From Bacteroidota bacterium (lineage in GTDB: Bacteria; Bacteroidota; Ignavibacteria; Ignavibacteriales; Melioribacteraceae), in NCBI GenBank assembly GCA_018818065.1, contig JAHISV010000010.1, forward strand, positions 1 through 64,000: 64,000 nt of DNA, in the 5' to 3' direction. Position 1 is the first letter of the stretch. Each line of letters begins with the position of its first letter. Positions 3,306 through 62,000 of the stretch are shown here, in pieces. Under the pieces are notes generated by a model, which made no database searches, was not told the origin of the DNA, and saw nothing but the letters and a program-made list of their open reading frames with translations. Made by a program: the position numbers and the translations under genes.

Positions 3306-3341
3306 TGTAATTAATTTTATCTCTTTTTTTTAGCTATTCTT

Positions 3342-3425
3342 TTTCACTTTTCACTTTTCACTTTTCACTTTTCACTTTTTACTTTTCACTTTTTACTTTT
3401 TACTTTTTACTTTTTACTTTTTTAC
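3342..3425. repeat. 7-bp microsatellite (CACTTTT / TACTTTT)
   Basis: About twelve near-perfect tandem units of 7 bp, TTTTCAC on the left giving way to TTTTTAC on the right. The array runs into the stop codon of the RND permease gene (minus strand) at 3422. Related A/G-rich strings (AGTAAAAAGTGTAAAGT) recur beside tRNA-Ala at 61.6-61.9 kb, so this is probably a dispersed low-complexity family in this genome. It lies downstream of both flanking genes. Confidence 0.85.
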
Positions 3426-6400
3426 TGTTTCTTCCCATACGCCGGTTCCAGTTCTATCCGTGATTTTTTTCTATTAAATAATATTCTAAAATCACTAATC
3501 GCATACAATGCTGAGGGCAGCATCAGTAATGTTATGAATGTTCCAAATATCAGTCCGAATGCCACAGAAACAGCCATCGGCACTAAAAACTGTCCCTGCT
3601 CACTTGTTAATAAAATAATAGGAGCTAGTCCTGCCGCTGTTGTTATAGTTGTAAGAACAATTGGTCTGAACCGGGAAACCCCTGCCTCGTGAAGCGCCTC
3701 ACCGACATCAACTCCATTCGCGATAAGTTTATTAAACTTATCCACAAGCACAACGGAGTCATTAACAATAATACCGGCAAGGGCTACAATTCCCAGGAAT
3801 GAAAGGATCGAAATGGGAATACCAACTATATAGTGACCCAAAACCGCCCCGATGATTCCTAAAGGTATCAGACTCATTATTAATAATGTCTGCCAGTAAG
3901 ATTTGAAAAGAAACATAATGATAGTGAACATGACGACAAGGGCAATTGTCATAGAGTAAGTCATTGAACCGATCATCTTTTGAACACCTTCCTGCTGTCC
4001 TCCGTAGGCACGGGATACTCCTTCAACCTGATGAAGAATATTTGGAACAATAACTCCATCCAGTTCTTTTAATACAACAGCAAGATCGTTCTTTGAATAA
4101 TCCATGTTAGCATAAACGGTCAATGATCTCTCGCCGTTTTCATGCCTGATCCTCTGAATGCTTCGCTGGAGACTATAATTTGCCACTTCTCTGAATGGTA
4201 CATAATCTCCCTGTGGTGTTCTGACCTTAAGGTTTTCAACCTGACTGAGGGAAATCCTGTCCTCTTTAGTAAATCTCACCCAGATTTTTATTTCATCCCG
4301 CCCACGCTGCAGTCTCATAACTTCCCTGCCATAAAATCCGTCACGTAATTGCGAAGTTAAATCCCGTAAAGTAAATCCAAGAGCCTTTCCTTTCGGCTTA
4401 AGATCAACTACGAATTCATTATTACCCAGAGGGGTGTCATCACGAATATCTTTAATTCCTTCAATTAGTTTTAATTCATCTTTCAACAAATCTTTTGCCT
4501 TCATAAGCTGAGCGTAATCAGAGCTCTGGAATCTGACAGAAATTGGATTACCGCCAAAACTCCATCCGCCAACTGTTACGTTTTCCGCCTCAGGAACATC
4601 ACCAATATATTCACTCAGCTCATCTGAAAATTCACTCACTGTATAATCGCGGTCAGCTGAAGATGGAAGTACAAAAAAGATATTAATTGTCGACCCATTC
4701 ATCCAGGATGTAAAATTTTTGATAGGATTAGGGACATTATTTAAAGAGTCTGCCTTAGTTTTGCCAAAACTTAATGCACGTTCAATAAGGTCATTCCTAA
4801 CCCTGTTTGCAACCTCTGCTGAGGCGCCTGCAGGCATTTCTGCCTCAATTCTGGCATATGGCGACTCAATCTCCGGGAAAAACTGTGCCTTCACATGTGA
4901 GCCCTGAAAGAGCCCCGTAATAACGAATATAACAGCCAACACGCTTGCCGTTACAGCCCACCTGTTATTCAAACAAACTTTTAATACTTTCGAGTAAAGA
5001 CCATACATAAAATAATGAAGGAATTTATCCACACTCGCTCTTGCTCTATCAAAGAAATTATTCTTTTTCTCCTGAATACCAAGCGCTTTTGAATGAGCCA
5101 GGTGGACAGGTAAAATAATCATAGCCTCAAGAAGGGAAAATAGGAGTGAGATAATTACAACCGCCGCAATCTGCCAGACATATTTTCCCAGCATACCATA
5201 AAAATAAAAGTAAGGCACAAAGGCAACAATGGTAGTCAGGATGGAAATAGTAACCGGTTTAATAACTTCCAGCGTACCGTCAATAGCAGCCTGGATTGGT
5301 TTTTTCCCATACTTTTCCCACTGAGTGTAAATACTCTCACCAATGATAATTCCGTCATCGACAAGAATACCAATAACCATTATCATCCCGAACAGACTGA
5401 ACTGATTAATACTAATATCCAGAATCCAAAGGACAAAAAACATGCCGAGCAATGAAATTGGTATTCCCATTGCAACCCAAAAAGACATTCTTGTATTGAG
5501 AAAAACACCAAGTATTACAAGAACGAGAATCAAACCAATTAATCCGTTTGAAGAGAGGAGTTCAATTCTTTCCTGCAGTTCATCCACTTCTTTAATAAAT
5601 GTATTGAACTCAACCAGTCCTGCATATTTCTCCTCATATTCCCTGGCAAGTTTCGTTGTAATCTCATCAATCTTCAGTACATCTTCGTTATTATTGTACA
5701 TTACATTAAAACCGACAGATCTTTTTCCGTTATATTCTGAGAAAAACCGATTTTCGGGCCACTGCTCCTGAATAGTACAAATGTCAGAAAGAAGTATTCT
5801 CTGTCCGTTAATGGCGGAGACAATTTCCAGTCCTTCAAGATCAACAGCCTGGTATTTCTTATTATAGGAACGAATAAGAATCTCTTCATCACCAGTAAGT
5901 ACAGAACCGGATGAGATATTAAGATTGGAATTTTGAATGGCACTTGAAATATCCTGAATTGTCAATTTGTATTTCATAAGATTATCGGGTGAGATCTCGA
6001 TAGAAAACTCACGGGCAGGTATACCCCATATATTAACATTAGAAATTTCACCTGTTTTCAGGAGGTCATCACGAAATTCTTCAACAATTTTCTTCAGGGT
6101 ATTCAGATCAGTGGGACCATAAATACTTAGCATGATTGCCCTGTTCCAGGAAGTCCTTTGGTAAACAATTGGTTTTTCAGCGGCAGATGGATAAGAATTA
6201 ACAGAATTTACAGAATTTTTAACATCCTGCAGCGCCTTGTTCATATCATAATCCGGCATAAAATCGACACTTATCGAGCCATAATTATCGCGTGAAGATG
6301 AAGTAATCTTATCAATACCTTCCAACCCTCTAAGATTTTCCTCAATCTTGATTACAATCCCTTCCTCTATTTCACGGGCAGAAGCTCCGGGATAAGGAAG

Positions 6401-7870: not shown

Positions 7871-8046
7871 ATCTTATCACTTTATAATATTCAATTACTG
7901 CTTAAAATTCAAATTAAGACAGCAACATTTTTACTGTTTAAGGGAACATGATGAATCATTGTAGAGTAGAAAGCATCCAACAGATAAATGTTCATTAAAT
8001 AGATTGAAATGAGTGATTTTTGAGTCGATATGTTAATTATGACATC

Positions 8047-8075
8047 TTGACTTTTTTTTATATTTACCATATATT
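8047..8075 (+). promoter_or_regulatory. groESL promoter
   Basis: TTGACT at 8047-8052, a 17-bp spacer and TATATT at 8070-8075 form a near-consensus sigma-70 promoter. Its -10 overlaps the first two bases of the CIRCE operator. It is the best evidence in the window for the promoter type this organism uses. Confidence 0.7.
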
Positions 8076-8100
8076 AGCACTCGTGTAAAAAGAGTGCTAA
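8074..8100 (+). promoter_or_regulatory. CIRCE element (HrcA operator)
   Basis: TTAGCACTC-N9-GAGTGCTAA matches the CIRCE consensus exactly. HrcA, the heat-shock repressor, binds CIRCE in many bacteria; here it would cover the transcription start of groES-groEL. hrcA itself is not in the window. Confidence 0.95.
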
Positions 8101-8136
8101 TCACATTATTAATAAATTAATTGGAGTTAAAACGAA

Positions 8137-8433
8137 ATGGCAGATTTTAAAATTCAACCATTGGGCGACAGAGTTATAGTTCAGGCTGACAAAGCTGAAG
8201 AGACAACAAAGGGTGGTATCATATTACCTGATTCAGCAAGAGAAAAACCAAGTCAGGGTAAGATTGTTGCTGCTGGTGCAGGTGCAAGAAGTGATAGCGG
8301 TGAACTGATTGCTCTTACTGTTAAAGTAGGTGACGCAGTTCTTTATGGCAAATATTCCGGTACCGAAGTTACAATTGAAGGGGAAGAATATATGATTATG
8401 AGAGAAAGCGACATTTTTGGTATAGTAAAATAA
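8137..8433 (+). CDS. groS: Co-chaperonin GroES
   Basis: Ten-kDa lid of the GroEL chamber. The 98-residue protein shows the family opening ([10 protein letters not shown]), the mobile loop region [21 protein letters not shown] at about residues 20-40 that contacts GroEL, and the ending [18 protein letters not shown] lies 10 nt upstream of the ATG. It is transcribed from the CIRCE-controlled promoter and separated by 42 bp from groEL. Confidence 0.98.
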
Positions 8434-8454: not shown

Positions 8455-10122
<1,668 letters not shown>

Positions 10123-58839: not shown

Positions 58840-59268
58840 TTACATCCGGTCATACAATTCCATCATTTTATTATATTCATCAGTGAATGATGTTTTTCTA
58901 TGAAACGCTTTCTGATTTTCAATATATTTGAAAACTTTTTCGACCCGCGATTCACTCACCGAAAAAACACCGTAGCCTTTCTGCCAGGCGAATTTCTTTT
59001 CAATAATTTCATTTTGGTTTATCCAATTAGAAGTCGATTCTTGTATCTGCTTAATAGTATCCGCGATTGTCTTATTTGGATTATGTAAAAACAATAAATG
59101 CACATGGTCAGACATACCATTAATAATGCGTACGGGGCATTTCTCTTCAAGCAATAGCTTTCTCATGTATTCGAATATTGTGTTTTCCGCAATCGGAGAT
59201 ATTAAAGGCTTTCTGCCTTGGGTGGAAAAAACAATATGCAGCCATATTCTGGAAAATGAATGTGACAT
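58840..59268 (-). CDS. IS200/IS605-type Y1 transposase
   Basis: 142 residues, normal for TnpA. The HUH motif is DHVHLLF (about residues 59-65), and the Y1 catalytic Tyr is in VFKYIENQKAFH (about 119), preceded by WQKGYGVFSVS. Strand-specific HUH chemistry is the known mode. No accessory TnpB is present. Terminal hairpins are not certain; minus-strand upstream sequence 59309-59337 (TGAAACCGTTGAACATAGCC region) may be an end or a REP-like site. It could be a domesticated REP-associated transposase. Confidence 0.85.
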   Translation of the reverse strand: MSHSFSRIWLHIVFSTQGRKPLISPIAENTIFEYMRKLLLEEKCPVRIINGMSDHVHLLFLHNPNKTIADTIKQIQESTSNWINQNEIIEKKFAWQKGYGVFSVSESRVEKVFKYIENQKAFHRKTSFTDEYNKMMELYDRM

Positions 59269-59308: not shown

Positions 59309-59351
59309 TGAAACCGTTGAACATAGCCCGGGATTTACTTGTCCGCCGTAG
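59309..59351. repeat. Repeat fragments upstream of the transposase
   Basis: Sequence rich in short palindromic halves (AACCGTTGAA, GCCCGGGAT). It includes CTTGTCCGCCGTAG (59338-59351), identical over 14 nt to one arm of the hairpin element inserted in the tRNA-Ala relics at 61656-61669. It may be a trace of a mobile hairpin repeat. Confidence 0.5.
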
Positions 59352-59353
59352 CC

Positions 59354-59582
59354 CTAATAAGCTTTATAATATTCATACTCTTCTTTTGAAAGGGTGAAGG
59401 CGGAATCCACAACCCGTACCTCTTCCCACGTTAAGTCGTAAAGGTTGTTGATTTCGTTTTCATTCATCCTGCTTACGAGCTTAACATGATTTTTTAAAAT
59501 CATCAATATCAGATCTGATGGATTTTGCCATAAGATATGCTTCGTCAAGAGCCTGTTTAGGTCTATGGTAAGAAACTATCAT
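59354..59582 (-). pseudogene. Short ORF with a probable frameshift
   Basis: An ATG at 59582 opens a 33-codon frame (MIVSYHRPKQALDEAYLMAK...) that stops at 59481. A second frame, open to 59354, continues with SRMNENEINNLYDLTWEEVR and ends EEYEYYKAY. The two join if one base is lost or gained in an A6 run near 59490-59497. The segment LYxLTxEEVxxV resembles the C-terminal end of type IIG methylase-like proteins, but this is weak. It may be a genuine small gene, a relic, or a sequencing error. Confidence 0.4.
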
Positions 59583-61518: not shown

Positions 61519-61524
61519 TAGGTG

Positions 61525-61597
61525 TGGAGCTAAGCGGGTTCGAACCGCTGACCTCTTGGCTGCCAGCCAAGCGCTCTCCCAACTGAGCTATAGCCCC
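61525..61597 (-). tRNA. tRNA-Ala (GGC)
   Basis: A complete 73-nt cloverleaf: acceptor GGGGCTA/TAGCTCC, D-arm AGTTGGGA region, anticodon stem CTTGG/CCAAG with loop CTGGCAG (anticodon GGC, reading GCC/GCU), T-arm with TTCGAAC and discriminator A73. The G3-U70 wobble pair, the alanine identity element, is present. CCA is not encoded. It is isolated between two secreted-protein genes and has its own terminator. Confidence 0.97.
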
Positions 61598-61636
61598 ATA
61601 AAAGAAAAGTACAAAGTAAAAAGGTAAAAGTAAAAA

Positions 61637-61702
61637 CAAAGAGCTAATCCAACTGCTTGTCCGCCGTAGTTTTTTTTCTACGAAGGCGGAAGCTATAGCC
61701 CC
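61637..61702 (-). pseudogene. Partial tRNA-Ala relic 1 with hairpin insertion
   Basis: On the minus strand GGGGCTATAGCT matches the first 12 nt of tRNA-Ala. It is followed by a hairpin element (TCCGCC...CTACGGCGGA, A8 loop), then CAGTTGGATTAGCTCTTTG, which resumes the D-arm sequence CAGTTGGGAGAGCGCTTGG with changes. The tRNA then ends. Confidence 0.8.
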
Positions 61703-61760
61703 ATAAAAGATAGTAAAAAGTGTAAAGTAACAAGTTAAAAGTAAATGCATTAAAAAAATA

Positions 61761-61827
61761 CAAAGAGCTCTCCAAACTGCCTGTCCGCCGTAGTTTGTTT
61801 TTCTACGAAGGCGGAAGCTATAGCCCC
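61761..61827 (-). pseudogene. Partial tRNA-Ala relic 2 with hairpin insertion
   Basis: Same structure as relic 1, 125 bp further on. GGGGCTATAGCT, the hairpin element (A5CAAA loop), then CAGTTTGGAGAGCTCTTTG, which is closer to the intact D-arm and anticodon stem. The insertion is at the identical position, so the element was already present before the tandem duplication. Confidence 0.8.
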
Positions 61828-61882
61828 GTAAAAAGACAGTAAAAAGTGTAAAGTAACAAGTTAAAAGTAAAAGCAAATACAA

Positions 61883-62000
61883 AAGAACAAAAAATAAAAA
61901 CTAAAACTCAAATCTAACCCTTCAACAGGCTCAGGGCAAGCTACTCCTTACTAAAATCAGGAGTGTAAATGTAAATAACTTTTGTTTCTATTTCAACGTG
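61883..62000. other. Gene-free stretch with REP-like motif
   Basis: Contains CCCTTCAACAGGCTCAGGG (61918-61936), a form of the widespread intergenic motif CCCTTCGACAAGCTCAGGG, and ACTCCT-N10-AGGAGT, a short inverted repeat. No gene seen. Confidence 0.5.

Follow-up and report, generated by a model that had tools for sequence, protein, structure and literature searches.

The tRNA-Ala locus of the window (the whole stretch of 64,000 nucleotides analyzed here) raises the question of how two fragments of a tRNA gene came to be interrupted at an identical position by a short palindrome, right beside an intact gene of the same kind. ARAGORN detected a single tRNA gene in the window, an intact tRNA-Ala with anticodon GGC (61524 to 61597, reverse strand). 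Directly upstream of its 5′ end lie two units of ∼125 bp, each of which reads, in the sense of the tRNA, GGGGCTATAGCT, then a hairpin, and then CAGTT....

Anatomy of the split tRNA-Ala relics

The two units, each composed of relic, hairpin, and spacer, form a tandem array with a period of ∼125 bp (61632 to 61891), which TRF reported with a period of 126 and 89% matches; a repeat search placed the relic units 124 to 125 bp apart. In relic 1, nucleotides 1 to 12 of tRNA-Ala (GGGGCTATAGCT, 61691 to 61702, reverse strand) were identified by repeat search and alignment. They are followed by the first insert, CTTGTCCGCCGTAGTTTTTTTTCTACGAAGGCGGA (61656 to 61690, predicted folding energy of −13.6 kcal/mol), and by the D-arm piece past the split (61639 to 61655, reverse strand), which aligned exactly only for CAGTTGG. 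Relic 2 is built alike, with nucleotides 1 to 12 at 61816 to 61827 (reverse strand, again GGGGCTATAGCT, the adjoining upstream base being changed), the second insert, CCTGTCCGCCGTAGTTTGTTTTTCTACGAAGGCGGA, at 61780 to 61815 (−12.7 kcal/mol), and a D-arm piece at 61763 to 61779 (reverse strand) with 15 of 17 positions identical. In both relics, the split follows nucleotide 12 of the tRNA and precedes nucleotide 13, within the D stem (an earlier note on this DNA had described D arms broken at one and the same base), and the inserts of 35 and 36 bp share the ends CYTGTCCGCC...GGCGGA.

The note had also held that the pieces rejoin once the insert is taken out. Without it, GGGGCTATAGCT^CAGTTGG of relic 1 was identical to tRNA-Ala at 19 of 19 nucleotides and GGGGCTATAGCT^CAGTTTGGAGAGCTCTT of relic 2 at 27 of 29, and the alignment score against tRNA-Ala rose from 24 to 38 (relic 1) and 48 (relic 2). 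Shuffling of the left flank never produced either rejoined score (0 of 2,000), so the split match is better than chance. Taken by itself, the left piece of relic 1 is weak (7 nt, equaled by 159 of 5,000 shuffles), and that of relic 2 is strong (0 of 5,000). Both relics comprise the 5′ part of the tRNA only. As the anticodon and T arms are absent, excision of the insert would yield no full tRNA of the kind expected from an interrupted, intron-bearing gene, and a group I or other intron was set aside because the insert is too short and the remainder of the tRNA is absent. The relics matched no Rfam family, and a distant search of plasmids with the relic as the query gave no match.

The A-rich spacer of unit 1 (61703 to 61755) resembles the 5′ flank of the tRNA; together with the second spacer (61828 to 61891), it also resembles heptamer-like repeats (TTTTCAC/TTTTTAC) found at 3341 to 3431 and elsewhere in the genome. 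Two further searches returned what appear to be chance matches: none of 44 matches to CAACTGCYTGTCCGCC in viral contigs was followed by the hairpin, as judged by eye, and the split D-arm pattern without the hairpin sequence gave four matches in 391 genomes, chance-like by eye and none of them hairpin bearing.

Copies in the same genome and in related genomes

Full copies of the GTAG type (TCCGCCGTAG) numbered only four in the 3.95-Mb genome, and three of them lie inside tRNA relics, namely, the two of tRNA-Ala and one of tRNA-Cys on another contig. The fourth copy lies in the window at 59338 to 59404, has a longer loop, and is flanked by GGGATTTA^ATCC. Here, a lone arm at 59338 to 59351 beside an IS200-type transposase had been noticed previously. 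The neighborhood was confirmed, as the start of a Y1 transposase gene (IS200-like, HUH, 142 amino acids; 58840 to 59268, reverse strand; PF01797, E value of 5.8e-26) is ∼70 bp from position 59338; the arm, on the other hand, is not single, since a wider-gap pattern search located its partner GGCGGA at 59399 to 59404, with 63 nt between the outer ends of the two arms (three further genome matches to this pattern were not element-like, and the backward control gave one match per strand). The tRNA-Cys copy, on contig 15, sits in a duplicate of the 3′ part of tRNA-Cys(GCA), with flanks that match the intact gene at L018:4855-4929. It interrupts the T stem (CCG^ACCGC), 3.1 kb from the intact gene.

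Within the family, a less strict pattern, TGTCCGCC..GGCGGA, matched 43 of 79 genomes, many of the matches being simple hairpins of short length or what appeared to be coding sequence. tRNA fragments split by the hairpin were nevertheless present in at least five related genomes: a tRNA-Asp fragment in G062, a tRNA-Gly fragment in G031, a tRNA-Ser fragment in G602, a pair of tRNA-Gly fragments in G636, 114 bp apart in tandem and carrying identical hairpins, and, in a member of another family of the same order (G236), a full-length tRNA-Ala pseudogene with the hairpin at the same D-stem site. Another hairpin replaces the anticodon arm of that pseudogene, no intact tRNA was found in the 19 kb examined, and its only Rfam match was to tmRNA, below threshold (23 versus 47 bits). 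In a sixth genome (G614), the hairpin and AGCTATAGCCCC lie ∼22 bp from an intact tRNA-Ala, and the locus is orthologous, with relatives of the window's PhoD and 134-amino-acid genes alongside. Where a tRNA is split, the sequence without the insert reads G^A, with no target duplication. The idea that the hairpin might have no other copies thus failed in its own genome as well as in relatives.

tRNA matches that cross the insertion junction with a score of at least 35 were found at 10 of 93 distinct hairpin sites (scores of 35 to 66; one of the ten, L201, is ambiguous, as the hairpin there abuts an intact tRNA-Ser at its 3′ end; G614 and a further relative, G621, fall outside the count under its rule). 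Among the controls, 2 of 279 scored 24 to 25 and none reached 30.

In four genomes of different groups (L029/L201 of G214, L033, L045, and L058), an intact tRNA-Ser gene has the same hairpin right at its 3′ end, and a second related hairpin then follows. In G214, whose locus came from the phylum search, the hairpin and its flank occur again 476 bp away without a tRNA.

Wider distribution and nesting in REP sequences

A strict scan of genome contigs, the sample being biased by the demand for intact TCCGCC/GGCGGA arms, recovered at least 119 stretches from Bradyrhizobium, Patescibacteria, Verrucomicrobia, Bacteroidetes, and others. Among the strict copies listed, the same borders recur: CT or CC precedes TGTCC, and A is the commonest base after GGCGGA. 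In other phyla, the hairpin also lies within REP loops: forty of the 119 copies listed interrupt known REP-type motifs, for example GTAGGGTGGGCAAAGCGA^AGCGTGCCCACC, these nested copies being mostly from one genus. Outer stems of at least 7 nt across the insert were present at 31 of the 119 copies listed, against 5.35 expected from shuffles. The joined flanks folded more strongly than random sites when all listed copies were included (P = 1e-6) and less markedly so when the REP-nested copies were left out (P = 0.008); outside REPs, the sites show a modest structural preference. tRNA genes within 150 bp of the genome-contig loci comprised three tRNA-Ser, one tRNA-Met, and one tRNA-Gly, compared with 15 of 1,190 control sites, and at the tRNA-Ser neighbors the hairpin abuts the tRNA 3′ end.

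REPs of the GTAG and CGTC families have been described as short palindromes with variable loops, some of them inserted within other palindromes, and the GTAG-14 REPs of Bradyrhizobium possess large self-complementary "GCGG/CCGC type loops" of up to 27 bp (PMC3733652). These GTAG-14 elements are probably REPs that carry the present hairpin, and the nested copies found here are probably their loops, viewed as an element apart, a reading that would account for large self-complementary REP loops.

Origin of the hairpin and alternative explanations

The explanation that we consider probable is that a small palindromic mobile element enters DNA able to form a hairpin, is tolerated in redundant tRNA copies, and is later duplicated in tandem with them. 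The element would be a non-coding, non-autonomous palindrome, usually of ∼31 to 36 bp, bounded by CYTGTCCGCC...GGCGGA, with an inner stem and a loop that vary. It would insert without target duplication (at G^A where the target is a tRNA) and would prefer targets that can fold, tRNA arms here and REP loops elsewhere, perhaps recognized as single strands or cruciforms. In the tRNA-Ala case, it would have entered the D stem (nucleotides 12/13) of an extra 5′ fragment, and the 125-bp unit would have been duplicated afterward, as in G636. Insertion into a tRNA copy and ∼125-bp duplication, as proposed in the earlier note, are well supported, with duplication probably the later event: the two units share site, element, and spacer, and the G636 tandem provides a parallel. 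The exact split, the clean borders of the insert, its presence in tRNAs of several identities and genera, and its nesting in REP loops are observations, whereas mobility is inferred. A bias of survival may explain why the insertions observed in tRNA genes are confined to redundant partial copies, as a hit in a sole essential gene would be lethal. Against this reading, other hairpin types are present in these relics as well, and decaying tRNA copies may generally tend to gain palindromes. A bolder version, which we regard as rather doubtful, holds that a widespread class of mini hairpins recognizes folded DNA and not sequence, with tRNA cloverleaf arms and REP loops as preferred targets, and that the partial duplication of the tRNA may be a product of the insertion itself, the working gene staying intact. 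tRNA arms have a known folded shape with fixed coordinates; as the same tRNA position is hit in different tRNAs and genera, structure-guided insertion of a mini-element becomes directly testable. The hairpin-split relics would also constitute a natural record of the loss of redundant tRNA copies.

An unlikely alternative is that the hairpins are REP sequences mobilized by the neighboring Y1 (RAYT/IS200-like) transposase. Insertion without target duplication agrees with the known chemistry of Y1 enzymes, and single-strand chemistry of this type would fit as the mobilizer; the association, however, is weak, with one gene beside one copy. Only one of the eight Y1 genes of the genome lies near a hairpin, and only one of the four hairpins lies near such a gene. 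Moreover, when five of the genome's own Y1 proteins were combined into a profile, it found no Y1 open reading frame in 229 loci, nearly all of them hairpin bearing, so that the nearby Y1 gene, which the earlier note had proposed to test for binding, is not supported as the mobilizer. A MITE derived from IS200/IS605 would have the ends of a complete IS present in its genome; here, a copy of the hairpin flanks the Y1 gene on a single side. The hairpins are REP-like in being short palindromes with variable loops, nested in other palindromes, and at 31 to 36 bp they fall within the 20 to 40 bp of imperfect REP palindromes (one copy, with arms that span 63 nt from outer end to outer end, is longer). 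A GTAG is present after the outer stem; it is, however, internal and not at the end of the palindrome, and is replaced by ATAG or GAAG in relatives. The copy number, four in this genome instead of hundreds, and the location in tRNA fragments likewise set them apart from REPs, as may the RAYT linkage, for which one Y1 gene beside one copy stands against none in 229 loci.

That the relics are leftovers of integrative elements using tRNA attachment sites, with the hairpins as their debris, seems more unlikely still. tRNA genes are classic integration sites, tRNA-targeted genomic islands also leave partial tRNA copies near intact tRNAs, and the 3′ half of tRNA-Cys is repeated ∼3.1 kb from the intact gene with genes in between. 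In contrast to such islands, with their direct repeat of the tRNA 3′ end, cargo, and integrase, the Ala and Gly relics are tandem 5′ fragments; they and the Ser relic consist of the 5′ part beside an intact gene with no cargo in between, and no integrase was seen at tRNA-Ala. Around the tRNA-Cys repeats, inspection by eye of the open reading frames of at least 90 amino acids revealed no integrase, and the hairpin borders are identical to those of copies in REP loops far from tRNAs.

We consider it improbable that the 5′ fragment and hairpin form a functional leader, a tRNA mimic upstream of the tRNA gene, under selection. The tRNA-Ala locus of G614 shows this anatomy again among shared neighbors, even though PhoD there is only 50% identical, and the inner hairpin stem differs among copies. 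The pattern is patchy, however: two near-complete genomes of the G614 genus (G445 and G503) gave no hairpin-pattern match, and copies occupy various tRNA arms and positions surrounded by decay. In addition, no run of U follows the hairpin, so that it is no intrinsic terminator, a role that was set aside. Chance resemblance or an assembly artifact is strongly disfavored and scarcely credible: the sequence comes from a draft assembly (86.6% complete, 16 contigs), but the shuffle tests, the controls, and the independent recurrence in other carrier genomes, most of them 93 to 99% complete, argue against it.

A literature search found no report of such hairpins in tRNA fragments, which does not prove their absence, and a text search of papers for the hairpin letters returned only unrelated titles among the matches listed. 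Rickettsia palindromic elements resemble the hairpins as palindromes inside genes, but those elements have been reported as in-frame insertions within protein genes, whereas the hairpins here lie in tRNA fragments. The GC clusters of yeast mitochondria are tiny non-coding mobile hairpins with a minimal target of AG for GC42 (PMC4478555), and some mobile hairpins of organelles, namely, GC clusters (PMC4478555) and RHEs of sponges (PMC2800124), lie inside rRNA genes. Both are similar to the present element as tiny hairpins without coding capacity but are mitochondrial and give no sign of common descent; by analogy, the yeast GC clusters with their AG target (PMC4478555) are its closest functional counterpart.

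Other hairpins were also observed in decayed tRNA copies. Between the intact tRNA-Cys and its relic, a second tRNA-Cys fragment bears a different hairpin, CCCGGCTTTGCCGGG. tRNA-Cys relics with several different hairpins occur at L276:895-1020 (G031) and at L018:5003-5040 and 8010-8160, where a single position, following GTCTGCAA, holds stems that differ yet remain self-complementary (CCCGGCTTTGCCGGG and CCCGCCTTAGGCGGG). A wider class of elements, bounded by TGTCC...GGA, may include these inserts. Beside the tRNA-Cys relic lies a duplicate of 54 bp from within a transporter-like gene (L018:7949-8002 and 9242-9294, 94% identical), which suggests mosaic local duplications. In G621, a tRNA-Leu copy is likely split by a similar hairpin, and a cluster of decayed tRNA-Leu-like copies, some with inserts, surrounds one intact tRNA-Leu (L282 and L325).
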